Below, piece after piece: positions 4,126-23,585 of a stretch of DNA of 49,391 nt; the first letter of the stretch is position 1, and the number at the start of each line of letters is the position of its first letter. Where the stretch lies: NCBI GenBank assembly GCA_030681555.1, contig JAUXRW010000037.1, positions 1 through 49,391 on the forward strand. The letters are read 5' to 3'. This stretch comes from Acidimicrobiales bacterium. GTDB lineage: Bacteria > Actinomycetota > Acidimicrobiia > Acidimicrobiales > VFJN01. A program made the translations under genes and the position numbers. The notes beneath the pieces were generated by a model. That model was not told where the DNA came from, made no database searches, and was given only the letters and a program-made list of their open reading frames with translations.

Positions 4126-4371
4126 GTCCGCCGGGTCCTCCTCGCGGCGCTGCTGACGGCAGCGTCGGCGGTCGGCTGCTCGCGAGCCGACGATCCCACG
4201 CTGCAGCCGGCAGACCGTCCGGCCAGCACGTCGGAAGGCGCAGCGCCCACGACGCCCACAACGCCCACGACGGCCGAGTCGACCACGACGACGGCGCCCC
4301 CGATCCCGTGGCCGCCCGTTCCCGCCGGGCCGGTCAAGGCGGTCGCCACCCCGACCGGCGTCGTCCTCGCT
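4126..4371 (+). other. In-frame lipoprotein signal and linker lacking a normal start codon
   Basis: Directly after the sucD stop, the reading frame of the amidase is open and encodes RRVLLAALLTAASAVGC. This is a basic n-region, a hydrophobic core and a good lipobox (AVGC, cysteine codon at 4177). A Pro/Thr/Ser-rich linker follows. The frame is open from 4096, but no ATG, GTG or TTG occurs in it before 4372. The true start must be non-canonical, or one base has been lost in the sequence or in evolution. The segment clearly belongs to the amidase. Confidence 0.7.
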
Positions 4372-5142
4372 GTGCTGCGCGAAGCAGGAGCGGGCACGTA
4401 CGTGGCCCGGTCTCCCTGTGGACGTGAGGTCACCGTGACCGGCACGCCCGTCACCGGCGCCACCGTCGTGCTCGACCCCGGTCACGGTGGGGTGGAGCCC
4501 GGCGCCCGCGGCCCGGCCGGCACCGCCGAGAAGGACGTCAACCTGGCGATCGCCCAGGAGGTCGAGCGACGGCTCGAGGCGCTCGGCGCGATCGTCGTCC
4601 TCACCCGCACGGGGGACTACCGGATCACGCTGGCCAGCCGGGCCGCCATCGCCACCGCTCTGACGCCGGTGCTCTTCCTCTCGATCCACCACAACGCCGA
4701 GCCCGACGCGCCGAGCCTCGGCCCTGGCAGCGAGACGTACTTCCAGATCCGGGATCCGGCGTCGAAGCGGGCTGCCGGCCTGGTCTACGAGGAGTTGATC
4801 CGCGCCCTGTCGCCGTTCGACGTCAGCTGGGTGGCGGACTCCGACGCCGGCGCCAAGTACCGCCTGGCCTCCGACGGCGGTGACTACTACGGCATCCTCC
4901 GGCGCAGCGCCGGGGTGCCGGCCGTCCTGTCCGAGGCCGCCTTCATCTCGAACGGTCCCGAGGAGGCGCTCCTGGTCGACCCGGCCTTCCAGGCCGCCGA
5001 GGCGGAGGCGTTCACCCGGGCCGTCGTCCGGTTCGTCACGACCGCCGACCCTGGTTCGGGCTTCGTCGAGCCGTACCCCCGCACCACGCCCGCCGGACCC
5101 GGCGGCGGCGCGGGAGGCTGCGTCGACCCGCCGCTCGCCTAG
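4372..5142 (+). CDS. N-acetylmuramoyl-L-alanine amidase (Amidase_3 family), probable lipoprotein
   Basis: The catalytic domain starts at VVLDPGHGG and continues with GTAEKDVNLAIA, LTRTGDYRITLASRAAIA, SIHHNAEPD and VLSEAAFISN. These supply the zinc ligands His, Glu and His, and the C-terminal catalytic Glu, of AmiC/CwlM-type enzymes. It cleaves the bond between muramic acid and the stem peptide in peptidoglycan. The 256-residue product from GTG 4372 is the first with a normal start codon. The preceding 82 codons encode a lipoprotein signal and a linker, so the mature enzyme is probably anchored outside the membrane. It follows sucD on the same strand and probably shares its transcript. It converges with the membrane protein at 5164-5607. 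Confidence 0.9.
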   Translation: MLREAGAGTYVARSPCGREVTVTGTPVTGATVVLDPGHGGVEPGARGPAGTAEKDVNLAIAQEVERRLEALGAIVVLTRTGDYRITLASRAAIATALTPVLFLSIHHNAEPDAPSLGPGSETYFQIRDPASKRAAGLVYEELIRALSPFDVSWVADSDAGAKYRLASDGGDYYGILRRSAGVPAVLSEAAFISNGPEEALLVDPAFQAAEAEAFTRAVVRFVTTADPGSGFVEPYPRTTPAGPGGGAGGCVDPPLA

Positions 5143-5163
5143 CTGGTCCGATCACAGAACGGG

Positions 5164-5607
5164 TCAGATGGAGGAGCGGCCGCTGGCCTGCTCCTCCCTG
5201 TACTTCATGAAGCCGCCGGCGGCGAAGGCCAGGGCGGCGAGTGTGGCCAGGAAGAGGCCCCACGCCCGGTCGACGTCGATGCCGAAGGCGCCGTCCTCGC
5301 CCATGATCAGCTTGAGGACCACAAGGATCGCGGAGAGGGCGCCAGCGGCGAGGAAGGCCTGCCCCCACGTGATGGGGAGGTCGGGAACGTTGGCGGTTCC
5401 GGCCTTGGTGAGCAGCACGACCGCCGCAGCGGCCAGCCCGAGCAGCGCGGGGATGCCGGCCCACACGAAGCCGACGTCCCATCCGTTGCCGCTCTCGCTG
5501 AAGCCGGCGACGCTCACCTCGAACCAGGGGAGGAACGAGGCGATGAACAGCACGAGGCCGGAGCCCGCTATGACCTTGTCGCTGGTGCTGAGCTTGCTGA
5601 GGTCCAC
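5164..5607 (-). CDS. Hypothetical four-helix membrane protein
   Basis: A 147-residue protein from a GTG start. It has four hydrophobic segments, roughly residues 13-30, 45-67, 82-102 and 115-134. The short opening MDLSKLSTSDKVIAGSG and the motif FLPWFEVSVAG are typical of small actinobacterial integral membrane proteins of unknown function. No catalytic residues are apparent. It is divergent from purN. Confidence 0.65.
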   Translation of the reverse strand: MDLSKLSTSDKVIAGSGLVLFIASFLPWFEVSVAGFSESGNGWDVGFVWAGIPALLGLAAAAVVLLTKAGTANVPDLPITWGQAFLAAGALSAILVVLKLIMGEDGAFGIDVDRAWGLFLATLAALAFAAGGFMKYREEQASGRSSI

Positions 5608-5742
5608 GATGGTCCGCCTCCAGGCTGGGGATGTGGTGCGGGGCCGACGCTAATCCAGACCGTGACCGGCACGACGGACCGACGGGGTCCCCCGGAGACG
5701 GCGCCGGGCCGGGGCCCCACAGGCGGCTGGTACGTTGCCGCG

Positions 5743-6324
5743 GTGCGCATCGCCGTCCTCGCGTCGGGGAGCGGGACCCTGCTCGACGCCATCCTCTCCG
5801 ATGGCATCCCGGTCGAACTCGTCGTGGTCGACCGACCGTCCCGCGCGACGGAGGTGGCGGCCGGGCACGGCGTGCCCGCCGTGCTCGTGGAGCGCACGAG
5901 CTTCGGTGCAGACTTCGACCGCGATGCCTACACCAAGGAGGCGGTCGGCGTCCTCGAGTCGGCTGCCATCGAGCTCGTCGTGATGGCCGGCTTCGGCACC
6001 GTCTTCGGTGAGCCGATCCACGACCGCTACGACGGCCGGATCCTCAACACCCACCCTGCGCTCCTGCCGGCCTTCAAGGGATGGCACGCCGTGCGGGATG
6101 CGCTGGCCGCCGGCGTCAAGGTCACGGGCTGCACGATCCACGTGGCCACGCTCGAGGTCGACGCCGGCCCGATCCTCGCCCAGGAGGCCGTGCCCGTCCT
6201 CGCCGAGGACGACGAGGCCTCCCTCCACGAGCGCATCAAGGCTGTGGAGCGCCGCCTCTACCCCGACACCATCCGCGCCGTCCTGGCCGACCCCTCGATC
6301 CTCCGGACGGAGCCGGCGTCCTGA
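5743..6324 (+). CDS. purN: Phosphoribosylglycinamide formyltransferase (GART)
   Basis: A 193-residue protein when started at GTG 5743 (RIAVLASGSGTLLDAILSDG), which matches the family N-terminus. A GTG at 5662 would add 27 low-complexity residues. It uses 10-formyl-THF to formylate GAR in purine synthesis. The catalytic Asn-x-His is in LNTHPALLPAFKG, and the Asp of the folate-binding loop is in VDAGPILAQEAVPV. The stop codon overlaps the purH ATG (TGATG), so the two are translationally coupled. Confidence 0.93.
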   Translation: MRIAVLASGSGTLLDAILSDGIPVELVVVDRPSRATEVAAGHGVPAVLVERTSFGADFDRDAYTKEAVGVLESAAIELVVMAGFGTVFGEPIHDRYDGRILNTHPALLPAFKGWHAVRDALAAGVKVTGCTIHVATLEVDAGPILAQEAVPVLAEDDEASLHERIKAVERRLYPDTIRAVLADPSILRTEPAS

Positions 6325-7835
6325 TGCGGGCCCTGCTCTCCGTGTACGACAAGACGGGCATCGTCGCCCTGGCCCGCGAGCTGCGCAGCCTCGGCTGGGA
6401 CATCGTCTCCAGCGGTGGCACCGCCACCGCCTTGCGCGAGGCCAACCTCGACGTCACGGACACGGCCGAGCTCACCGGCTTCCCTGCGATCCTCGGGCAC
6501 CGGGTCGTCACCCTCCACCCGAAGGTGCACGGCGGGATCCTGGCCGACCGACGCGACCCGGACCACCAGGCCGACATGGCCGCCTACGGCATCGACCCGA
6601 TCGACCTCGTGGTGGTGAACCTCTACCCGTTCCGGTCCAACCCGTCGATCGAGCTCATCGACGTGGGCGGTCCCACGATGGTGCGGGCCGCCGCGAAGAA
6701 CCACAAGGACGTGGGCGTCCTCACCGACCCCGCTGACTATCCGCAGGTGATCGAGGAGCTCAAGGGCGAGGGCGTGCTGTCGGCGGCCACGAAGCGGTCC
6801 CTGGCCCGCAAGGCCTTCGCCCACACGGCGGCCTACGACGCCGCCATCGTGGCCTGGCTGGACGAAGGCGACGACGCCCCGCTGCCGCCGACGCTCCACC
6901 TCGCCCTCGAGCGCGTCCAGGACCTGCGCTACGGCGAGAACCCCCACCAGACGGGGGCCCGCTACCGGCAGGTCGGCACGTCCTCGTGGTGGGACGACGT
7001 CACGCAGCACGGCGGTCTCGCCCTCAGCTACCTCAACCTCTTCGACGCCGACGCCGCCTGGGGCCTGGCCAACGACCTCGCCACCACGACCGGCCGGCCC
7101 GCCGTCGCCATCATCAAGCACGCCAACCCGTGCGGCGCCGCGGTGGCCGACACCCTCGACGAGGCCTACCAGCGCGCCTTCGAGTGCGACGAGCGCTCCG
7201 CGTTCGGCGGCATCGTCGCCCTCTCCCACGAGGTCGACGAGGCCACCGTGGCGCGCATGGTCGCCGCCGCGCAGGCCGACGTCGTCATCGCCCCCGGCTA
7301 CGCCGACGGCGTGATCGAGGCGCTCGCCAAGAAGCGCAAGAACACGCGCCTGCTCACGGCGGCCCCACCCACGCCCGACCCGCTGCAGATCCGTCAGCTC
7401 ACCGGCTCCTGGCTCGTGCAGGACGCGCACCACTTTGCGGCCGCGCGCGACGACTGGCGGGTCGTGACCAAGCGCGTGCCCACCGACGCGGAGTGGGTCG
7501 ACGCCGAGCTGGCGTGGCGCCTGGTGGGCTGGGTGAAGAGCAACTCCATCGTGCTCGTGAAGGACGGCACCGCCTGGGGCATCGGCGCCGGGCAGCAGAA
7601 CCGCGTGGAGGCCGGACAGATCGCAGCGGCGAAAGCGGCCGGCCGGGCGGCGGGGGGGGCTTGCGCGAGCGATGCCTTCTACCCGTTCCCCGACGGCATC
7701 GAGGCGGCGGCGGAGGCGGGGGTGGCCGTGGTCATCCAACCCGGCGGCTCGGTGAAGGACGACGACAACATCGCGAAGGCCGACGAGCTGGGTCTGTCGA
7801 TGGTCTTCACCGGAGAGAGGCACTTCCTGCATTGA
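6324..7835 (+). CDS. purH: Bifunctional AICAR formyltransferase / IMP cyclohydrolase
   Basis: A 503-residue protein from ATG 6324, which overlaps the purN stop by one base. The N-terminal MGS-like IMP cyclohydrolase domain begins [16 protein letters not shown] and contains [16 protein letters not shown]. The C-terminal AICAR transformylase domain contains [10 protein letters not shown], the Lys-His pair in [22 protein letters not shown] and [12 protein letters not shown]. It catalyses the last two steps of IMP synthesis. Its length is slightly short of the usual ~510-530 residues, with no missing motif. folD follows with an overlapping TTG start. Confidence 0.95.
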
Positions 7836-10961: not shown

Positions 10962-13900
10962 ATGGCGGACCAGGGCCGGACGGACCGCCTCGCGGCGGCA
11001 GTTCGCAGCGCCGCGCGCCGCGCTCTGGATCGGGGCGAGTGGGACGAGGCCGCGGCGCTGGCCCGTGAGCTGCTCGTCGACGATCCGGACGATGCCGTGG
11101 CCGCCGGCATCCTCGACGCAGCCGACCATCGCGGCGCCACCGGTGACACCGGGCAGGGGCGCCGGTTCCTGACCGTGCTCTTCTCCGACGTCGTCGGGTC
11201 GACGCCGCTGAGCCAGCGGCTCGATCCGGAGGACTACCTGGTCGCAATCGCGGCGTACCAGGACGTCGTGCGCACGGCGGTGGCCGCCCACGGGGGCTAC
11301 CTCGAGCAGTTCCAGGGCGATGGCGTCGTCGCGTACTTCGGGTACCCGGTGGCCGACGAGGACGATCAGATCCGCGCGGTCGAGGCCGGCCTCGAAATCG
11401 TGCAGCGGGTGGGTCTGGCCGAAGAGCACGCCGGCGTGGAGCTCGCCGCGCGGGTGGGGATCCACCTCGGCCGAACCGTGCTGACGAGCCCCGGCTTCGG
11501 CACGCGCCACCGCAGCGCCGCCATCGGGTTCGCAGCCAACGTGGCCGCACGGCTCCAGGGCATCGCCAAGCCGGGCACCGTCGTCGTGAGCGAGGCGGTG
11601 GCGGAGGCGGCGTCGCAGTACTTCGAGCTGGAGCCGCTGGGAACGCCGGAGCTGCGCGGGGTGGACGAGGAGATGCGGGTCTTCGAGGTGCGCTCCCTGC
11701 GGGCGCGGAGCACGACGGCCGACCATCGCTTGGCCACCCCGCTCGTCGATCGCGTCGCCGAGCGGGCGGCGATCGACGGGGCCTGGGCGGCTGCCGTCGC
11801 CCGCTCGGACAGCGAGCGGCGCATCCTGCTCATGGGCGACCCCGGCATGGGCAAGAGCCGCCTGGCCCGCTACGCCACCGACCTGGCCCGCATCGACGCC
11901 GCCAACCTGATCGAGATCAACTGCGGTCGCGGCCTGCGCCACGTCGGCCTCGGGGCGGTGCGGAGCGGCCTCGAGAAGGCCCTGGGGCTACCGCCCGGGG
12001 TCACGGGCGCGAGCCCTGCGGTGAGCGCAGCGATCCGCGAGCGGGCCGAGCTCGTCGGGCTCACCGCCACGTCGGGGGAGGTCCTCGAGGCGCTCCTCGG
12101 CGAGACCCCCGCTGCCGGCACGGTGCCCGAGCTGGCACCGAGCCTGCTTCGCGAAGCACTCATCAGCGCGCTCATCGAGTGGATCACGGCCGAGGCGCGC
12201 ATGGCTCCGACGCTCCTCGTCGTCGAGGACCTGCACTGGGCCGACGACACCGCGATCGAGACGATCCGCCGCCTGACCTCGCGCCCCCTCCCGCCCGGGC
12301 TCGCGGTCGTGCTCACGAGCCGCACCGGCGGCCTGCCGCTGGCGCTGCGAGCCCGTGCGGCCGGTGCCCTGCTCGTGGGCCCGCTCGACGAGGGCGACAC
12401 CCGCCGCATGGCGGAGGCTCTCGCCGGGAGCAGGCTGGATCCCGACGCGATCCACGCACTGGCGGACCGCAGCGAGGGCGTGCCGCTGTTCACCGAGCAC
12501 CTCGTCATGGCCACCACCACCACCACCGTGGCCAGGGCGGTGGGGGACGACCTGCCGGAGACGATCGAGGCCCTCCTGCAGACCCGCCTCGACGCCACCG
12601 GCTCGGGTCGAGGGGTGGCGGAGGTGGCCGCGGTCATCGGCCGGGAGTTCTCGGTGGACGTCGTCGAGGCGGCCTTGGTGCACCTCGGCCCGCGTTCGCC
12701 GGTCGCCCCGGAGTCGGCGCGTACCGCCTTGCGCCTCCTCGAGCGGGCGGGGCTGGTGGAGCGTGAGTCGACCGGGCACATGCGGTTCTGCCACTCCCTC
12801 GTGCGTGACGTCGCCTACGCCATCCAGCTGCGCAGCGAGCGGCCGCACCGGCACCGAGCGGTGGCGGCCGCCCACATCGAGCGCCGGGGGTCGGACGCGG
12901 CACCGGAGACGCTGGCCTACCACCACGAACAGGCGGGGGAGGTCGAGCCGGCCGCGGCAGCCCACATCCGCGCGGCGGTCAACGCCTCGCAGCTCGCTGA
13001 GTACGACCTCGCGCTCACCCACCTCCGCAACTCCGCTCGGCTCGTGGAAGGCGTGCCCACCTCGTCCGCCCGCCGTCTCGAGCTGGACGCCTACATGCAG
13101 ATCGGCGCGGTGTACGCGGCATCGTTCAGCTACGCGCAGCCGGAGGCGGCCGACGCCTACCGACGGGCCTTGGAGCTCTGCGACATCATCACCGCCGACC
13201 AGGGTCGTGACGACGGGCTGGAGGCGCAGCTGGCCGCTGCCCTCGGCGGGCTCTGGTCGAAGGAGATCGTGGCCGGCGATCTCCCGGCGGCCATCCGCGT
13301 CACCGATCGGCTGGACCGCCTGCTGGCCAGGTCGTCGGAGCTCGAGCTGGAGGTGCGCCGCTTCACCCTCGGTTGCCGCGGGCTCGAGCTCATGTACCTG
13401 GGGGACACGACGGCCGCGGCCGCCACCCTGCACCAGGCATCTCGGCTGGGCCGGGCCGGACCGATGCCGATTTCGCTCGGCACCCCACACGATTACGTGG
13501 CCGTCACCGACGCGGTCCTGGCCGTGGCCCTCACGCTCACGGGGGACGACGCCGGAGCCAGCACGGCGCTGGAGCGCGCCTTCACACGGGCCCGCGACCT
13601 CCCGTTCCCCGTCGGACCGTTCTCCGTGGCTGTCGTGCAGGTCTACGCCGCGTACCTGCACCGCCTGCGGGGCGACACCGATGCGGCCCGCACTGCGGCC
13701 CAGGAGGTCTGCGACCTCGGCGCCAAGCACGGCTTCCAGGAGCACTCGATGGTCGGGCAGATCCTTTCGCTCGTCGCCGCTGCGCTGGAAGGCGACGAGC
13801 CGGCGTGCCAGACGCTCGACGCCACCCTCGGCGTCTGGCGCATGGCCGGCGGCGGCCTGGCCGTCCCGGTGCTGCTCACGGAGCTGGCCGACGGGTGCCT

Positions 13901-14258
13901 CGTGATCGGCGACGTGGACCGGGCTCAGGCCGCCCTCGACGAGGCCGCGGCGATGGTGGAGCTCACCGAGCAGCGCGGGTCGGAGTCCGAGGTCCTCCGG
14001 CTGCGGGCCGAGCTCGACGCTCGGTGCGGGGCGTCCGACCAGTCGGTTCTGAAGGGGCTCGTGGCGGCGGCCGAGCTGGCCCTCGACCAGGGCGCCGTGC
14101 GCCTGGCCGGTCGAGCCTTGCACGGCGTCCGGCGGCGGACCGGCGACGAGCTGCCCGCCGTGACCGCCGACGTGGGCAGGCGCTTCGTGGCGTCGGTGCC
14201 GCCGACGGCCGCGGGAGACCTCCGCGAGATCGAAGGGTGGGTCAGTGCACGGGTGTGA
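10962..14258 (+). CDS. Class III nucleotide cyclase / AAA ATPase / helical-repeat regulator
   Basis: A 1098-residue multidomain protein. Residues ~67-245 form a class III adenylate/guanylate cyclase domain with metal-binding Asp in TVLFSDVVGST (D76) and QFQGDGVVAYFG (D120), and the Asn-Arg pair in AANVAARL (N193, R197). Residues ~265-560 form a STAND/AAA-type ATPase with Walker A GDPGMGKS (292-299) and Walker B LLVVEDLHWADD (~418). The remainder is a long alpha-helical TPR-like repeat region. A short TPR-like helix pair also precedes the cyclase. This architecture is common in actinobacteria as a putative signal-activated cyclase, but ligands are generally unknown. All cyclase key residues are present. 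The 3' end overlaps the convergent gene by 17 bp. Confidence 0.88.
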   Translation: MADQGRTDRLAAAVRSAARRALDRGEWDEAAALARELLVDDPDDAVAAGILDAADHRGATGDTGQGRRFLTVLFSDVVGSTPLSQRLDPEDYLVAIAAYQDVVRTAVAAHGGYLEQFQGDGVVAYFGYPVADEDDQIRAVEAGLEIVQRVGLAEEHAGVELAARVGIHLGRTVLTSPGFGTRHRSAAIGFAANVAARLQGIAKPGTVVVSEAVAEAASQYFELEPLGTPELRGVDEEMRVFEVRSLRARSTTADHRLATPLVDRVAERAAIDGAWAAAVARSDSERRILLMGDPGMGKSRLARYATDLARIDAANLIEINCGRGLRHVGLGAVRSGLEKALGLPPGVTGASPAVSAAIRERAELVGLTATSGEVLEALLGETPAAGTVPELAPSLLREALISALIEWITAEARMAPTLLVVEDLHWADDTAIETIRRLTSRPLPPGLAVVLTSRTGGLPLALRARAAGALLVGPLDEGDTRRMAEALAGSRLDPDAIHALADRSEGVPLFTEHLVMATTTTTVARAVGDDLPETIEALLQTRLDATGSGRGVAEVAAVIGREFSVDVVEAALVHLGPRSPVAPESARTALRLLERAGLVERESTGHMRFCHSLVRDVAYAIQLRSERPHRHRAVAAAHIERRGSDAAPETLAYHHEQAGEVEPAAAAHIRAAVNASQLAEYDLALTHLRNSARLVEGVPTSSARRLELDAYMQIGAVYAASFSYAQPEAADAYRRALELCDIITADQGRDDGLEAQLAAALGGLWSKEIVAGDLPAAIRVTDRLDRLLARSSELELEVRRFTLGCRGLELMYLGDTTAAAATLHQASRLGRAGPMPISLGTPHDYVAVTDAVLAVALTLTGDDAGASTALERAFTRARDLPFPVGPFSVAVVQVYAAYLHRLRGDTDAARTAAQEVCDLGAKHGFQEHSMVGQILSLVAAALEGDEPACQTLDATLGVWRMAGGGLAVPVLLTELADGCLVIGDVDRAQAALDEAAAMVELTEQRGSESEVLRLRAELDARCGASDQSVLKGLVAAAELALDQGAVRLAGRALHGVRRRTGDELPAVTADVGRRFVASVPPTAAGDLREIEGWVSARV

Positions 14259-14769
14259 CGCGCACCACCGGGATGAGGCGGTCCGAGGCGCGCTGCTGGT
14301 AGGACGCGAACTTCGGGTAGACCGCGACGAGCCGCGCCCACCAGCGCTCTCGTTCCTCCCCGTGGAGCACCTCGGCGCGGACGGGGGCGTGGTGGTCGCC
14401 AGCCCACGTCACGACCGGCGCGGCCAGTGGCTGTCCGTCGTACGTCGAGATCACCCCCTGGGTCTCCTGCGCCTCGTAGGCCAGGAGGTTCCGGTACCAG
14501 TCGGGATGCTCGGTGGTGCCGCCCCGCGAGCCCACGAGGATCCACGCGTCGCCGTCGGGCAGCGCCAGGAGCGGCTTGGTTCGACGGATGCCGGAGCGCC
14601 GCCCGCTCACGCGCAGCAGGACGACCGGGGAGCCCCAGATCGTGCCGCCGACGCGTCCCTTGGACACCTCGAACAGCGACACGTTGATCGCCTCCATCAC
14701 CCGCACGCCGAGGAGCCCGGTGCGCTCGCTGAACGGCGTGGCCGGTGGTCGGGCGTCGAGGTCAACCAT
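14242..14769 (-). CDS. Deazaflavin (F420)-dependent nitroreductase-family protein
   Basis: A 175-residue protein from ATG 14769. The split-beta-barrel signature of the Ddn/DUF385 family is present: VSGRRSGIRRTKPLLALPDG, then WILVGSRGGTTEHPDWYRNL, then VRAEVLHGEERERWWARLVA. Members bind F420 or related deazaflavins, and some reduce quinones or nitro compounds. The individual substrate is unknown. It is divergent from the operon that starts at 14801 with only 31 bp between, so the promoters must overlap. Its 3' end overlaps the cyclase gene. Confidence 0.85.
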   Translation of the reverse strand: MVDLDARPPATPFSERTGLLGVRVMEAINVSLFEVSKGRVGGTIWGSPVVLLRVSGRRSGIRRTKPLLALPDGDAWILVGSRGGTTEHPDWYRNLLAYEAQETQGVISTYDGQPLAAPVVTWAGDHHAPVRAEVLHGEERERWWARLVAVYPKFASYQQRASDRLIPVVRVTPVH

Positions 14770-14800
14770 CTGTTCCCAGACTACGCGAAGGGCAGGGTCC

Positions 14801-15808
14801 ATGGAGCGCCGTGACGAGCTCGAACTGGCCGTCGTCGGTCTGCTCCACACGCTCGACGAGAAGGAGGTACCGCTCGTGGACCTCGTGCCGGAGGACCGCC
14901 TCGAGGAGGTGGGCGGGCGGGACCCCGCGGAGTCCGTGCGGCTCGTGCTCGAGCTGTCGGATCCCTCCGATCCCGTCGAGCGGCTCTGGCTGGCCCGTCT
15001 CGCCGTCGACGTCCTGCGCAAGGGGCGCGGCCGCGTGGGCGGCAACGCCGCAGATGCCCTCCTCCAGCGCGTGGTCAGCCCGGTCGCGGCTGGGCGCGAG
15101 GAGTCCGCTGCCCGAGCCCTGCGCTCGATCGTCGAGCGGCTCGAGCCCGGGGCACCGCTCACCCAGGACGTCTTCGACGAGCTGCAGGAGGCGTTCGGGG
15201 ACGCCCTCGAGATCCGGGGCGCGGCGTCGGACGTGCAGGTGCTGCTGAGCGGCGACGCTGGCGCGCTGGCGACCCTGTTCCTCGAGCTGGCGACCAACGA
15301 CCTGTCCTGCGCCTCGTCGATCCACCAGGTCGAGGTCGAGGGCGAGCTGCGGGACGTCATCTTCGTCGAGGTCGACGTCTGCACCAACAAGTCCTTCGAC
15401 AGCTGCAAGAGGTCCATCGACCCCACCAGGTGGCCCGACGCAAACCCGCTGTTCCGGAGCGTGGACGTGCTGAGCGTGGCCGCCACCTCGGGGGCGGACT
15501 GGGCCGGTGTCATCAAGGAGCGGGTCGGTCCCGGATTGAACGGGAAGGTGTACGAGACCAACCTGTCCGTCACCTACCTCGAGCGCGAAGGGATGGCGAT
15601 CACTGCGTTCGACCTGGCGCCGGGCCCGCCGGCGGGCGGCGGGAAGGTGACGGTGGACCGCGGGTTCCTGTCGCTCACGGAGGAGGGCACCCACCGGCGC
15701 ATCCGCACGCTGAAGGTGTACCGGATCGAGGACCTCGTGACCGAGCCGTCGTGGATCTGCCCGCTCTGGTCGTCGCAGCTCGCCCTCGCCGGATGGTGGG
15801 ACGCATGA
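14801..15808 (+). CDS. Uncharacterised protein, first gene of a polyprenyl/flavoenzyme operon
   Basis: A 335-residue protein from ATG 14801; I do not recognise the family. The N-terminal ~170 residues are acidic and helical (LELAVVGLLHTLDEKEVPLV, RLWLARLAVDVLRKGRG). Around 190-335 the sequence becomes beta-rich, with VIFVEVDVCTNKSFDSC, DPTRWPDANPLFRSVDVLS, VYETNLSVTYLEREG and VTVDRGFLSLTEEGTHRRI. That part has the look of an SRPBCC/START-like lipid-binding fold. This is a guess from strand pattern, not a domain match. The ATGA overlap with the next gene shows translational coupling. Confidence 0.65.
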   Translation: MERRDELELAVVGLLHTLDEKEVPLVDLVPEDRLEEVGGRDPAESVRLVLELSDPSDPVERLWLARLAVDVLRKGRGRVGGNAADALLQRVVSPVAAGREESAARALRSIVERLEPGAPLTQDVFDELQEAFGDALEIRGAASDVQVLLSGDAGALATLFLELATNDLSCASSIHQVEVEGELRDVIFVEVDVCTNKSFDSCKRSIDPTRWPDANPLFRSVDVLSVAATSGADWAGVIKERVGPGLNGKVYETNLSVTYLEREGMAITAFDLAPGPPAGGGKVTVDRGFLSLTEEGTHRRIRTLKVYRIEDLVTEPSWICPLWSSQLALAGWWDA

Positions 15809-16320
15809 GCCCGAAGGGGGGGAAGGCCAAGCTGGTGGCCACGTCCCCGACAGCGCATGATCGCCTGCTCCTGGCCGTCGAGCGCCTGGTGGACGACGCG
15901 TCCACGGGCGTGCTGAGCCACTGCGACCTCCACGCCGGGCTCGGGTCGACCTGCGGCGGTGCAACCGGCACCAGCACCAAGCCGGGGAGCGCGCCGACGT
16001 CCTTCGCGGTCGCGACGCACACGGCGTGCCGCAGGGCGGCCACGGGGACGCAGGGGGAGGTGGCCGTCAGCGTCCCGGTGTCGACGTACCCGCGCCCGCT
16101 CGATCCCTGTGGCGCGGTCCACGTCGTTGCCGGGCAGCTGCCGAGCACCACGGCGCAGCCCGCTCCGGTCACGACGCCTGCGGCGATCGGTGCGGGGGAG
16201 GACCACATCCTCGTGTCGCTGGCCCCGAGCGGGCCGGTCGGGGCGTACGTGGCGCGCGTGTCCGACACCTCGCACGCGGTGCGACGACCCGTCGTGATCT
16301 ACCTCGACGGCCTCCCGTAG
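15805..16320 (+). CDS. Uncharacterised protein with N-terminal helix and beta-rich C-terminus
   Basis: A 171-residue protein beginning at ATG 15805 inside the upstream stop (ATGA). Residues ~17-40 (TAHDRLLLAVERLVDDASTG) form a helix. Then comes a Cys-containing, Thr/Ser/Gly-rich segment. The last ~100 residues form a repeating short-strand pattern (VAVSVPVSTYPRPL, GAVHVVAGQLP, DHILVSLAPSGPVGAY) suggestive of an immunoglobulin-like or jelly-roll fold. There is no signal peptide. It is unrecognised, and its organisation resembles the protein at 18116-18787 in the same operon. Confidence 0.6.
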   Translation: MSPKGGKAKLVATSPTAHDRLLLAVERLVDDASTGVLSHCDLHAGLGSTCGGATGTSTKPGSAPTSFAVATHTACRRAATGTQGEVAVSVPVSTYPRPLDPCGAVHVVAGQLPSTTAQPAPVTTPAAIGAGEDHILVSLAPSGPVGAYVARVSDTSHAVRRPVVIYLDGLP

Positions 16321-18119
16321 TGGGCGCGGGGCGCCGCGTCGCCGTCCTCGGCGGGGGGATGGCCGGAGTGACGGCAGCGTGGGAGCTGAGCCGGCCGGGC
16401 TGGGAGGACCGCTTCGAGTCGATCACGCTGTACCAACGAGGCTGGATGCTCGGCGGAAAGGGCGCCAGTACGCGGGACGACCAGGGGCGGATCCTGGAGC
16501 ACGGCCTCCACGTCTGGCTCGGGTACTACGACAACGCCTTCCGCGTGCTGCGGGAGTGCTACGAGGAGCTGGACCGGGCCCGCACCGATCCCACCTGCCC
16601 GGTCCGGACGTGGCAGGACGCCTTCCTGCCCGCCCCCGAGGTGGGCGTGTTCGAGCACGGCCCGGATGGCGTCACGGACGTGTGGCTGGCCCGGTTCGGC
16701 ACGAACGAGCTGCTGCCGGGCGGGCCCGCCCCGACCGAACCGGACCTGGGCGAGCTCGTGCGTCGAGGAGCGGGGCTGGCCGCCGACCTCCTCCGCTCCG
16801 CCCGGCAGCGGCCGAACATCCGCGTCGACGTGGCCGTCGACCTCGTGACGACCGTGCTGCGGGGGATGGCCGCCGACGGCCTGCTGCGGCCCGGGGGCGG
16901 TTTCGCGAGCGTCGACCACCACGACTTCCGGGACTGGCTCCGGCGCCACGGGGCGGCCGAGGCGACGATCGACGGCGGCCTCGTGCGAGGGATGTACGAC
17001 CTCGTGTTCGGTTACCGCGACGCCGATCACACGAGGCCGGCGTTCTCTGCCGGCCTCGGCGTCTTCCTCGCGGTCCGCATGTTCCTGGATTACAAGGGCG
17101 CCATCTTCTGGAAGATGACGGCGGGGATGGGCGATGTCGTGTTCGCCCCGTTGCACCAGGCCCTCCGCCGCCGGGGCGTCGGGATCCGCTACTTCCACCG
17201 CCTCGAGGGCCTGCGCCTCTCGCCGGACGGAGCGCGCTTGGCCGCCGTGGACCTCGTCCGGCAGGCGCCCGCCGAGGTCGCCGAGGAGTACGAGCCGCTC
17301 GAGCGCTTCGGAGGCCTGCCGTGCTTCCCGTGGCGCCCGCGCCTGGGCCCGGCGGCGCCGTCGGACCGGGAGCCCACGGAGCACGACCCGCTGACGCTGG
17401 ACGGCGAGGCGGTGTCCCTGGTGTGCGGCGTGGACGTCGACGACGTCGTCCTCGCAGTGGGTCTCGGTGCGCTGCCGATCGTGGCCGCCGACATCGTGCG
17501 GGCCCATCCCCGCTGGCAGGCCATGATCGAGCACGTGCGCACGGTCCCCACCCGCTCCGCGCAGCTCTGGCTGCGCGACGACGAGCCGTCGCTCGGCTGG
17601 GCCCACCCCGGCGCGACGGTGTCGGGCCTCGAAGCGCCGTTCGACACGGTCGCGTCGATGACGCACCTTCTGCCGGCCGAGGGCTGGTCCGATGCGGGGG
17701 CCGATGCGGATGCCGACGTCCCGCGGTCGCTGGCCTACCTCTGCAGCGCGCTGCCCGGCGGGGCCACCGATCTCGCCTCCACCACCGACGAGTTCCTCGG
17801 CGAGTGGTCGAAGGCGCTGTGGCCCGCCGGCGGACCGGTCGGGCTCGAGGATGCCGGCGTCGTGGCCCACCACGTCTCGGCCAACACCGATCCGTCCGAC
17901 GGCTACGTGCAGTCGCTCCCGGGCTCGGGTGCGCACCGCCTCCGTGCGGATGGCTCCGGCGTCGAGGGCTTGGTACTCGCCGGCGACTGGATCGACTGCG
18001 GGCTGAACGCCGGGTGCATCGAAGCCGCGGCCATCGCGGGGGTGCAGGCCTGCGCCGCCGTCGAGGGCCGCCCACTCAGCGAACGCGTGCTCGGACCGCT
18101 CACCTGGGACAGGGCATGA
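16320..18119 (+). CDS. FAD-dependent oxidoreductase, phytoene-desaturase-like
   Basis: A 599-residue protein from GTG 16320, overlapping the upstream stop by one base. The N-terminal dinucleotide-binding motif is RRVAVLGGGMAGVTAAWELS. LYQRGWMLGGKGAS and GRILEHGLHVWLGYYDNAF follow, typical of the COG3349/phytoene-desaturase-like amine-oxidase superfamily. The C-terminal FAD-contact region is LVLAGDWIDCGLNAGCIEAA. Relatives act on isoprenoid or hydrophobic substrates (carotenoid desaturases, hydroxysqualene dehydroxylase). Co-operonic location with a polyprenyl diphosphate synthase supports an isoprenoid substrate, but no phytoene or squalene synthase is nearby, so the reaction is open. Confidence 0.8.
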   Translation: MGAGRRVAVLGGGMAGVTAAWELSRPGWEDRFESITLYQRGWMLGGKGASTRDDQGRILEHGLHVWLGYYDNAFRVLRECYEELDRARTDPTCPVRTWQDAFLPAPEVGVFEHGPDGVTDVWLARFGTNELLPGGPAPTEPDLGELVRRGAGLAADLLRSARQRPNIRVDVAVDLVTTVLRGMAADGLLRPGGGFASVDHHDFRDWLRRHGAAEATIDGGLVRGMYDLVFGYRDADHTRPAFSAGLGVFLAVRMFLDYKGAIFWKMTAGMGDVVFAPLHQALRRRGVGIRYFHRLEGLRLSPDGARLAAVDLVRQAPAEVAEEYEPLERFGGLPCFPWRPRLGPAAPSDREPTEHDPLTLDGEAVSLVCGVDVDDVVLAVGLGALPIVAADIVRAHPRWQAMIEHVRTVPTRSAQLWLRDDEPSLGWAHPGATVSGLEAPFDTVASMTHLLPAEGWSDAGADADADVPRSLAYLCSALPGGATDLASTTDEFLGEWSKALWPAGGPVGLEDAGVVAHHVSANTDPSDGYVQSLPGSGAHRLRADGSGVEGLVLAGDWIDCGLNAGCIEAAAIAGVQACAAVEGRPLSERVLGPLTWDRA

Positions 18120-18787
18120 CCGACGACCGGCCGCCCCGCTCGAAGGGACCGTTCGGGCCGCTGGAGATGCTCGACGAGGTGCAGCGGCAGGCCTTCGAGG
18201 CGGCCCTGCGCGTGACCGCCGAGCTGAGCTCGCTCGGCGGCGGCCTCGCCGACCTCTCGTGGCTGCGGGACGGGGCGCGCGCGTCGTCGATCGACGCCGG
18301 AGCTGGGCCCGACGGCGCCGAGCCGATCGACGTCGGCCGGCTCCGCGCCGACGTCGCCAAGGCGGCGGACACCTTCGCCGACCTGCTTCGGGCCATGCTC
18401 GACGTCGGGTTCGACGCCATGGACGAGCTGGCCCGGCGCGGTGGCGCGCGCCCCGTGGGGGCCGCCTCCCCGGGTGGGGTCGCCGAGGTCCGCTGCACGG
18501 TGCGGAACGACCTGCACGCAGCGAACGGCCTCCGCGCCCATGTGCCGCAGCTGGCATCGGTGGACGGGGTCGTGCTGGCCGCCGCCGCCCACGTCGACCC
18601 CGAACGGTTCGACCTGCAGCCGCACGAGCGCCGCGAGGTGTGCGTCGGCGTGCCGGTGCCCGCAACGGCAAGGCCCGGCCGCTACCACGGCCTCCTGCTC
18701 GTGGCCGGGCTGCCCGACGCGGCGCACCAGATCACCGTGGAGGTGGCGGCGCCTGCGGCGCCCGAGGGGCCCGATGACGGCGACTGA
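18116..18787 (+). CDS. Uncharacterised helical plus beta-sandwich protein
   Basis: A 223-residue protein from ATG 18116 (ATGA overlap with the flavoenzyme). The first ~115 residues are helical, with LEMLDEVQRQAFEAALRVTA and LRADVAKAADTFADLLRAML. The last ~95 are strand-rich, with EVRCTVRNDL, PERFDLQPHERREVCVGVPV and PGRYHGLLLVAGLP. This is the pattern of an immunoglobulin-like accessory domain. The helix around 90-115 resembles the ED/D-hydrophobic helices of the small proteins at 10.3-10.9 kb. Unknown function; perhaps a scaffold or partner for the flanking isoprenoid enzymes. Confidence 0.6.
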   Translation: MTDDRPPRSKGPFGPLEMLDEVQRQAFEAALRVTAELSSLGGGLADLSWLRDGARASSIDAGAGPDGAEPIDVGRLRADVAKAADTFADLLRAMLDVGFDAMDELARRGGARPVGAASPGGVAEVRCTVRNDLHAANGLRAHVPQLASVDGVVLAAAAHVDPERFDLQPHERREVCVGVPVPATARPGRYHGLLLVAGLPDAAHQITVEVAAPAAPEGPDDGD

Positions 18788-19814
18788 GGCCGTCGCCCCG
18801 ACGCTGCCGTCGGATCTCCTGGCCTACTACGGCGACATCGTCCACGAGGAGGTCCAGCGCACCCTCCGCTCGGAGGAGCGCTCGCCGCTCTCGCCGCTGG
18901 TCGCCGACTACCCGGGTCGCCCGGGGAAGCGCCTGCGCCCGGCCCTGCTGCTCGCGGCCTGCGAGGCGTTCGGCGGCGACCTCCGGGACGCGCTGCCGGC
19001 CGCCGTGTCGCTGGAGCTACTGCACAACGCCTTCCTCGTCCACGACGACATCGAGGACGCGAGCGGCCGGCGACGCGGCAAGCCCTCCCTCCACGTGCAG
19101 CACGGTGTGCCGATGGCGGTGCACGCGGGCGATGCGCTGGCGGTGCGGGCCATCCTCCCGCTCCTCGACCAGCCGCGGCTGAGCACACACCTCGTGCAGC
19201 GCGTCACCCGCGAGCTCCTGGAGACGGCTCGCCGCACGCTCGACGGGCAGTCGATGGAGCTGGCCTGGCGGGACGACGTCACCCGGCGGGTCGACCTCGA
19301 CGACTACCTCCGCCTCGTGCTGCACAAGACCTGCTGGTACACGACCATCTACCCGCTCCGCGCCGGGTGCCTGATCGGCAGCCGCGGGGGCGTGCCCCTC
19401 GGACCGCTCACGAGCTTCGGCTTCCTCCTCGGCGCAGCGTTCCAGGTGCGCGACGACGTGCTCGACGTGGCCGGCGACGCGGAGGCCCACGGGAAGGAGG
19501 CGATGGCCGACCTGCGGGAGGGCAAGCGCACCCTGCTCCTCGTGCACCTCCTCGGCGCGGTTGCGCCCGACGAGCGCCGGTGGCTCGAGGCCTACCTGGC
19601 CACCCCGGCGCAGGAGCGGACCCCCGCCGACGCCGAGGCCGTCCTCGCCCTCCTGCACGCCCACGGCAGCATCGAGACGGCGACGGCCTGGTCCGACGGC
19701 CTGGCCGAGGGTGCCCGGGCGGCGTTCCCGGCCGCCTTCGCGCACGCGGTGAGCCCGTTCCATGCCCGCTTCGTGGAGCAGCTCATCGACTACGTGGTCG
19801 CTCGCCCCAGCTGA
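18774..19814 (+). CDS. Polyprenyl (geranylgeranyl-type) diphosphate synthase
   Basis: A 346-residue protein from ATG 18774, overlapping the upstream gene by 14 bp. The first aspartate-rich motif is HDDIEDASGRRRGKPSLHVQ and the second is AAFQVRDDVLDVAGD, with GKRLRPALLLA and KTCWYTTIYPLRAG also conserved. It condenses isopentenyl diphosphate with allylic diphosphates. The residues at positions -4/-5 before DDIED (LLHNAF) are not bulky aromatics, so a C20 or longer product is plausible. As the last gene of the operon it would supply the prenyl substrate for the flavoenzyme upstream. It converges on icd with a 12-bp gap. Confidence 0.9.
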   Translation: MTATEAVAPTLPSDLLAYYGDIVHEEVQRTLRSEERSPLSPLVADYPGRPGKRLRPALLLAACEAFGGDLRDALPAAVSLELLHNAFLVHDDIEDASGRRRGKPSLHVQHGVPMAVHAGDALAVRAILPLLDQPRLSTHLVQRVTRELLETARRTLDGQSMELAWRDDVTRRVDLDDYLRLVLHKTCWYTTIYPLRAGCLIGSRGGVPLGPLTSFGFLLGAAFQVRDDVLDVAGDAEAHGKEAMADLREGKRTLLLVHLLGAVAPDERRWLEAYLATPAQERTPADAEAVLALLHAHGSIETATAWSDGLAEGARAAFPAAFAHAVSPFHARFVEQLIDYVVARPS

Positions 19815-22163: not shown

Positions 22164-23585
22164 GTGACGAGGACGACGAAGGGGCTGGCAGCGGTGACCG
22201 CAGGCGCGCAGCGGAGACGAGCGACGTTCACGTCGTCGTTCGGCGTGTCCCGGCGCGAGAACCACGACGCCTCCGGCTTCTACGCCCGCTTCACCGCCCC
22301 CATCGTGAGCAACGACGCCACGGTCGAGCGCCCGGGGGTGGTCGACCAGATCTACGTCGGCGATGCCCGGCACATGGATCGGGTGCGCCCCGCCTCGGTG
22401 GCCCTGGTCGTCACCTCCCCGCCGTATTTCGCCGGCAAGGCCTACGAGGAGGAGCTGGGGGAGGGCCACATCCCCGCCACGTACGTCGAGTACCTCACGA
22501 TGCTCGAGGAGGTGTTCGCCGAGTGCGTCGACAAGCTCGAGCCCGGCGGCCGGATCGCCGTCAACGTCGCCAACCTGGGCCGCAAGCCGTACCGGTCCCT
22601 GTCCGCCGACGTCATCGGGATCCTGCAGGACCGGCTGGGCCTCCTCCTGCGGGGCGAGGTCATCTGGCGCAAGGCGCGGGGCGCCGGAGGGAACTGCGCG
22701 TGGGGGTCGTTCAAGAAGCCGGCCAACCCGGTGCTCCGCGACCTCACGGAGCGCGTGGTCATCGCCAGCAAGGGCCGCTTCGACCGCGCCATCGACCCGG
22801 TCACGCGGGCGGCGCTCGACCTCCCGTCGATCGCCACCACCACGGCCGACGAGTTCATGGATGCCACGCTCGACGTGTGGGAGCTGGCGCCCGAGAGCGC
22901 CACCCGGGTGAACCACCCGGCCCCGTTTCCGGTGGCGCTCCCCCAGCGCCTGATCGAGCTCTACACGTACCGCGGCGACGTCGTGCTCGACCCCTTCATG
23001 GGCTCCGGCACCAGCGCGGTCGCCGCAGTGCGAACGGGTCGCCGGTACCTCGGCTACGACACCGACGAGGTGTACGCGAAGGCGGCCGCGGAGCGTGCCG
23101 CTGCCGAGGCCGAGCGCATGCTCGCCCAGCCCCCTGTGCCGGCGCCCGACAAGGCGGCTGCGGCGGCTCACGACGTGCTCGTGGCCGCCGGCTTCACGGT
23201 CGAGGACGCAAAGGCCACCAAGCGGCGGCGCTTCACCGGCGGCCTCACCGTCGACTGGGTGGCGGCCGACGACGCCGGTCGCCCCTGGGTCGTGCTCGTG
23301 GCCGGCACGGGCACGGTGGCGCGCGGCGGGCTGCGGCGGTCCGACGTGCTGTTCCGCACCCTGGGCGAGGCCACCGTGCTCACGACCGCCGGCCACCGCG
23401 TGCTCGTTCTCACCACCGACCTCCCCGCCTCGCGCTCCGCGGCGGCGGCGGCGCTGAGCGCGGCGCGGGGCACCTCGCTCGTCGACGCCCTCCAGCTCGG
23501 CGCCCGTGGGGTGCCGGAGCGCCTGGCCGTCTACGCGGGGGGGTCCGTGTCGGATCCCGTGGGCGATCTCCTGCCCGGCGCCTGA
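22164..23585 (+). CDS. DNA N4-cytosine/N6-adenine methyltransferase, probable restriction-modification methylase
   Basis: A 473-residue protein. The catalytic motif IV is TSPPY (84-88), and the SAM-binding motif I, DPFMGSGT (276-283), lies after it. This is the beta-class order of amino-methyltransferases. HPAPFPVALPQRLIELYTY precedes motif I as usual. A further ~145 residues (about 330-473) have alternating strands and helices, with VDWVAADDAGRPWVVLVAG, LRRSDVLFRTLGEA and VLVLTTDLP. They resemble a nuclease-like or recognition domain and are not needed for a minimal methylase. The next gene, 6 bp downstream, is its likely partner. The N-terminal 55 residues are basic and poorly conserved-looking, so the start is uncertain. 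Confidence 0.85.
   Translation: MTRTTKGLAAVTAGAQRRRATFTSSFGVSRRENHDASGFYARFTAPIVSNDATVERPGVVDQIYVGDARHMDRVRPASVALVVTSPPYFAGKAYEEELGEGHIPATYVEYLTMLEEVFAECVDKLEPGGRIAVNVANLGRKPYRSLSADVIGILQDRLGLLLRGEVIWRKARGAGGNCAWGSFKKPANPVLRDLTERVVIASKGRFDRAIDPVTRAALDLPSIATTTADEFMDATLDVWELAPESATRVNHPAPFPVALPQRLIELYTYRGDVVLDPFMGSGTSAVAAVRTGRRYLGYDTDEVYAKAAAERAAAEAERMLAQPPVPAPDKAAAAAHDVLVAAGFTVEDAKATKRRRFTGGLTVDWVAADDAGRPWVVLVAGTGTVARGGLRRSDVLFRTLGEATVLTTAGHRVLVLTTDLPASRSAAAAALSAARGTSLVDALQLGARGVPERLAVYAGGSVSDPVGDLLPGA

Follow-up and report, generated by a model that had tools for sequence, protein, structure and literature searches.

A gene cluster linking a prenyl diphosphate synthase to a desaturase-type flavoenzyme in an Acidimicrobiales bacterium and other bacteria: a candidate isoprenoid-lipid module

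Five tightly packed genes, designated P1 to P5, occupy positions 14801-19814 of a 49,391-nucleotide stretch of DNA from an Acidimicrobiales bacterium (contig JAUXRW010000037.1 of assembly GCA_030681555.1), hereafter called the window. The operon encodes a prenyl diphosphate synthase (PPS) and a flavoenzyme and belongs to a gene cluster that recurs across bacterial phyla. It is a putative isoprenoid biosynthetic cluster composed of known enzyme folds and of three protein families uncatalogued in Pfam and NCBIfam. With moderate confidence, we interpret the operon as the form that a dedicated isoprenoid-lipid module takes in Actinomycetota, its reactions and product being proposed from the proteins it encodes. 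The product of the cluster is probably an undiscovered isoprenoid lipid.

All five genes are on the forward strand: P1 (14801-15808), P2 (15805-16320), P3 (16320-18119, with a GTG start), P4 (18116-18787) and P5 (18774-19814). Stop and start codons are joined in ATGA at the P1/P2 (15805-15808) and P3/P4 (18116-18119) junctions and in TAGTG, with one base in common at 16320, between P2 and P3, and the last two genes overlap by 14 bp (18774-18787). The GC content of the five frames is 0.92-0.95 at third versus 0.46-0.60 at second codon positions, which is the high-GC coding signature of this genome. A five-gene operon with four stop/start overlaps had been proposed earlier from the nucleotide sequence (the original prediction), and these data confirm it, all five genes being coding by composition. 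Overlaps of this kind are suggestive of translational coupling but fall short of demonstrating the stoichiometric production that had also been claimed.

An alignment of the flavoenzyme was used to scan one genome per species, which yielded 80 loci whose genes were labelled by profiles, and 87 flavoenzyme homologues were then compared in a tree. PPS-linked flavoenzymes formed one clade of 55 rows from six phyla (support by the Shimodaira-Hasegawa-like approximate likelihood ratio test, SH-aLRT, 98), with P3 of the window inside it. This clade comprises an Actinomycetota half (35 rows, SH-aLRT 100), a Gram-negative half (19 rows, 100) and the sequence of locus L030. A PPS gene was called next to 47 of the 55 and located by tblastn at two more (L030 and L040), and the remaining six are on contigs shorter than 8.5 kb, so that every member with adequate flanking DNA has a neighboring PPS. 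The base rate of PPS genes, approximately 46 per 66 Mb in 12 genomes, corresponds to about 0.015 per 22-kb stretch.

The cluster was detected in Actinomycetota (including many environmental mycobacteria), Pseudomonadota, Myxococcota, Acidobacteriota, Gemmatimonadota and Binatota. Two other genomes from the order of the window genome, G074 and G096, both carry it. Its actinobacterial layout is P1, in some cases P2, a protein with cyclase, AAA and TPR parts, P3, P4 and the PPS; in mycobacteria the P4-PPS pair lies on the opposite strand. The Gram-negative layout combines P3, P4 and the PPS with an acetoacetate-decarboxylase-like protein and an NAD(P)-dependent reductase, and the cyclase protein is often present as well; compact examples are L110, L102 and L100. 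The decarboxylase-like proteins reach approximately 1250 residues, with a GREVYGFPK-like motif retained in slightly more than half of them, and the reductases are of the NmrA/epimerase or saccharopine dehydrogenase type. Because the same gene set recurs across phyla, a chance neighborhood could be ruled out. In many environmental mycobacteria (loci L038, L043, L063, L084 and others), the cluster is located between ESX-4-like genes (eccB4/mycP4-like, as judged by eye) and cutinase-like genes adjoining the rplQ-rpoA ribosomal region.

P5 is a trans-isoprenyl diphosphate synthase as judged from its sequence, which matches the Pfam family polyprenyl_synt (PF00348; 2.9e-53, 181 bits against a cut-off of 27) and contains both Asp-rich motifs (AFLVH-DDIED and FQVR-DDVLD). 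Its best structural match in the PDB is the geranylgeranyl diphosphate (GGPP) synthase of Thermus (1wmw, 1.2e-47). In terms of chain-length control, a small residue at the fifth position before the first motif points to a C20 rather than a C15 product. At positions -5 and -4, P5 has Ala-Phe, which is also the most frequent combination in its relatives (31 of 48), and the motifs suggest that the product is probably of the C20 type. P5 has the domain and the two Asp-rich motifs in common with GGPP synthases, but the cluster enzymes differ from these in forming a clade of their own, in the DDxLN form of the second motif among the relatives of P5 (41 of 42 readable sequences) and in their constant P4 partner. 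In a tree built with a quick version of the search, this clade contained 51 rows (SH-aLRT 99), including the PPS of locus L116, and was separate both from 17 further PPSs encoded in these genomes (two in that of the window) and from the encapsulin-linked PPS of locus L134.

The last comparison bears on the possibility that the operon is a cargo locus of a Family 2B encapsulin whose shell gene is located elsewhere. Family 2B polyprenyl-transferase systems are common in Actinobacteria (PMC8346489), and among the NCBIfam models P5 does score best against that of the polyprenyl transferase cargo of family 2 encapsulins (NF041169). The score of 176.6 bits, however, is far below the cut-off of 450, and P5 and the PPS of L134 fall into different clades. 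Moreover, the SrpI-type shell protein (PF19307) is absent from the window assembly (G000, 98% complete), and no SrpI-like protein was found in eight others of 12 cluster-bearing genomes. The encapsulin loci resemble the present cluster in combining an actinobacterial PPS with accessory isoprenoid genes and in a cyclic-nucleotide theme, with a cyclic-nucleotide-binding shell in the former and a cyclase in the latter; the window system differs in its PPS clade, its score and the missing shell gene. For these three reasons a cargo locus was rejected, and we give this largely refuted reading almost no credence.

P3 has Amino_oxidase (4e-12) and NAD_binding_8 (3e-11) domains and a profile match to phytoene desaturase (5mog). 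Its sequence identifies it as a flavin adenine dinucleotide (FAD)-binding oxidoreductase of the type represented by the plant-type phytoene and zeta-carotene desaturases and by HpnE (hydroxysqualene dehydroxylase). These enzymes are its best sequence matches and have the FAD-binding N-terminal motif region in common with it. A carotenoid, hopanoid or squalene-type pathway, with the phytoene or squalene synthase encoded elsewhere in the genome, would account for this resemblance, and one SQS_PSY gene is in fact present in the assembly, on another contig. The operon itself contains no phytoene or squalene synthase, as had been noted originally, and in this respect it differs from carotenoid and hopanoid desaturase systems. 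P3 also falls well below the family cut-offs, with 66.5 bits against 283 for HpnE (TIGR03467), its top NCBIfam match, and 30-37 bits against 569-622 for the carotenoid desaturases TIGR02731 and TIGR02732. In addition, its partners are different, and SQS_PSY is absent from two of 12 cluster genomes, both of them metagenome-assembled genomes (MAGs) and possibly incomplete. A conventional pathway of this kind therefore appears improbable to us.

P4 is a near-constant partner of the PPS. Of 47 loci examined, 45 have a P4 homologue immediately upstream of the PPS and the other two have one at another place in the locus; the P4 proteins of Actinomycetota are homologous to the Gram-negative ones (hhalign E value 1.8e-10). 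With P3 and P5 each in its clade and P4 beside the PPS, the window operon is a member of the PPS-linked P3-P4-P5 cluster type. The AlphaFold2 model of P4 (mean predicted local distance difference test score, pLDDT, 81.9) consists of two long helices (residues 15-45 and 73-109) and a C-terminal immunoglobulin (Ig)/NEW3-like beta-sandwich (approximately 112-210), the blocks of which mostly have a pLDDT above 90. In Foldseek searches, the sandwich matched the N-terminal domain of GH123, a sialidase Ig domain and MSP/ASH domains; the GH123 match agrees with weak hits of the Pfam family Glyco_hydro_123_N_2 among the P4 homologues (16 of 32).

P1 is predicted to be a START-type lipid-binding protein. 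Its AlphaFold2 model, of moderate quality (mean pLDDT 74.7), has a helical N-terminal region (residues 1-165) and a domain at approximately 173-330 with the helix-grip fold of the START/SRPBCC superfamily. The top Foldseek match was StAR (3p0l, 1.5e-5), and others included the silkworm carotenoid-binding protein BmCBP (7zvr), lutein-binding STARD3 (5i9j) and polyketide aromatase/cyclases. P1 is similar to these lipid-transfer proteins, which include sterol and carotenoid binders, in the predicted fold of its C-terminal half, and differs from them in lacking a sequence match and in having the additional helical domain. A single-sequence search made P1 appear almost unique; profile and cluster comparison then revealed a family present in 31 loci, all in Actinomycetota.

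The small P2 protein, which has an amphipathic stretch at its N-terminus and a Thr/Ala-rich middle, is the least certain gene of the five, although its frame is coding by composition (GC content 0.92 at third and 0.60 at second codon positions). At L029, L054, L072, L079 and L085, and likewise in G074, Blastococcus and others, P1 continues into a fused C-terminal helix and Ig-like part. Mycobacteria have a separate P2 gene, with multi-helix stretches, at the position of this fused part, which is homologous both to mycobacterial P2 (hhalign E value 3.3e-7) and to P4 (3.3e-7). Against P2/P4 families of other genomes, residues 78-168 of window P2 aligned to the helix and Ig-like part without significance (E value 0.13). 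P2 is possibly a degenerate protein of this kind, with the window copy too divergent to be placed in these families. The original prediction had described the three proteins as having helical and beta-sandwich parts; P1 is better described as a predicted START-type lipid-binding protein. It had also left all three without a characterized family, and none of P1, P2 and P4 of the window matched a Pfam or NCBIfam family above the curated cut-offs.

The helical nature of these proteins raises the possibility that they form a coat on a lipid or isoprenoid body inside the cell, in the manner of phasins around polyester granules; the coat would consist of P2, P4 and the P1 helices, with P5 and P3 acting at its surface and the START domain loading the body. 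P4 is like phasins in its small size, in its long and partly amphipathic helices and in being encoded beside a lipid-synthesis enzyme, and mycobacterial P2 is multi-helical. The highest helical moment exceeded that of most shuffled sequences for P2, for P4 helix 1 and for their homologues, and the START-type fold of P1 would also suit such a body. On the other hand, P4 differs from phasins in its attached Ig-like sandwich, amphipathic helices are common, the operon lacks a polymerase-like enzyme and the inclusion itself is hypothetical. Phasin profiles matched none of the 32 P4 homologues scanned, up to an E value of 1, and membership of P2 and P4 in this family was rejected. The helical proteins may have a lipid-coating role, but we regard a phasin-like coat as an unlikely explanation of the operon. 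We attach similarly little weight to a more elaborate version, an undescribed assembly in which a dedicated PPS subfamily, together with a flavoenzyme of the desaturase type and a carrier of the START type, would operate on an isoprenoid inclusion coated by the helix and Ig-like proteins and controlled by the cyclase/ATPase as a sensor. The suggestion that the operon might specify a compartment is accordingly unsupported, as the assembly has no SrpI-type encapsulin, P5 is not cargo by score or tree and phasin models do not match.

The conserved unit is larger than the five genes originally listed. A protein of 1098 residues encoded upstream at 10962-14258 on the forward strand, with the start codon chosen by codon usage, combines a class III adenylate/guanylate cyclase domain (Guanylate_cyc, 6e-15) with an AAA_16 ATPase domain (6.5e-12) and TPR repeats, and it belongs to the cluster. 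Its homologues are present in most PPS-linked loci, directly upstream of the flavoenzyme in L029, L054, L072, L079, L085 and most mycobacteria and downstream in some others. Flavoenzymes outside the PPS-linked clade adjoin the same decarboxylase-like and cyclase proteins. In Qingshengfaniella (L025, 8923-11829), a flavoenzyme whose C-terminal extension resembles acetoacetate decarboxylase precedes a cyclase protein and a Crp/Fnr regulator, and the locus lacks a PPS; the link among flavoenzyme, decarboxylase and cyclase therefore extends beyond the PPS clade.

Since cyclase proteins also accompany flavoenzymes that lack a PPS, the locus could be viewed as a signalling or defense system centered on the cyclase, in which the lipid enzymes would produce a messenger or a toxic compound. 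In its cyclase domain the protein is similar to Pycsar cyclases (PADLOC PycC, 2.4e-17), but this domain is joined to AAA and TPR parts, and the best NCBIfam match of the protein is a TOMM kinase/cyclase. No Pycsar effector and no other useful PADLOC match were found among the scanned proteins. Beyond the cyclase fold there is nothing in favor of defense, which we consider very unlikely.

Returning to the isoprenoid-lipid module, its co-occurrence was assessed in 346 evenly drawn Actinomycetota genomes. The P1 family and strong P4 matches (E value below 1e-30) were each present in the same three, the window genome, G170 and G282, and the flavoenzyme was present in these three, adjacent to P1 and P4, and in G349, where it has no PPS beside it. 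The three uncharacterized proteins had been expected to occur together with the two enzymes, and for P1, P4 and the flavoenzyme this expectation held, with one exception (locus L116, below). A distribution this rare and patchy fits an accessory lipid pathway.

In the module as we envisage it, P5 would make a prenyl diphosphate, probably C20 as its motifs suggest. The long helices of P4 may tether P5 to the membrane or a lipid surface, with the Ig-like sandwich available for protein contacts. The chain would then lose or transfer its diphosphate and be desaturated or reduced by P3, P1 would bind and move the hydrophobic intermediate or product, and P2 may supply a second helix and sandwich element. 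The cyclase/AAA/TPR protein would sense a signal and control the pathway. The Gram-negative versions have acetoacetate-decarboxylase-like proteins and NAD(P)-dependent reductases instead of P1 and P2.

Several observations weigh against this interpretation. The operon has no evident enzyme for removing or transferring the diphosphate. The 32 flavoenzyme rows outside the clade belong to the same family and none has a PPS; the flavoenzyme therefore need not use an isoprenoid substrate. One genome (G327; L116, 2950-9838) has a P4-PPS pair without a flavoenzyme, and its PPS is of the cluster clade. The amphipathic signal of P4 is modest, as 2.5% of shuffled sequences reached the value of helix 1 and 12% that of helix 2. 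The window proteins are themselves divergent: P3 and P5 each have an end branch longer than 1.0 in their respective trees, and the second motif of P5 is DDVLD, the usual form in other synthases, rather than the DDxLN of its relatives. The window rows, their long branches notwithstanding, group with Actinomycetota.

L116 is perhaps a second kind of cluster employing the same synthase and partner. Encoded around the pair are a protein with a weak match to SCP2, a methyltransferase and a number of additional helix and sandwich proteins; a carotenoid-hydratase-like assignment considered for one gene was not backed by Pfam.

Other genes flank the operon. An F420H2-dependent quinone reductase family gene on the reverse strand (14242-14790; PF04075, 4.6e-26) separates the cyclase gene from P1. 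It is not a conserved part of the cluster; its position may be accidental, or it may connect the flavoenzyme with the quinone pool; a protein resembling it by eye is encoded at 7198-7647 of L036, a locus from an Acidimicrobiales MAG. In L036, a monomeric isocitrate dehydrogenase-like gene (4139-6370) directly follows the flavoenzyme, and the window operon is also followed by such a gene, on the other strand. Just past the latter is a forward-strand DNA N6/N4-methylase gene (22245-23585; PF01555).

This gene set is undescribed in the open-access literature that we searched, with subscription papers and preprints outside the search. The pairing of a specific PPS subfamily with a helix and sandwich protein that is almost always present implies that an isoprenoid lipid has been overlooked by routine annotation, because its genes bear generic labels, i.e., "polyprenyl synthetase", "FAD-dependent oxidoreductase", "acetoacetate decarboxylase family" and "hypothetical". 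The cluster is carried by cultivable Mycolicibacterium hosts such as M. neoaurum and M. litorale (clusters L063, L084), in which direct testing is possible.

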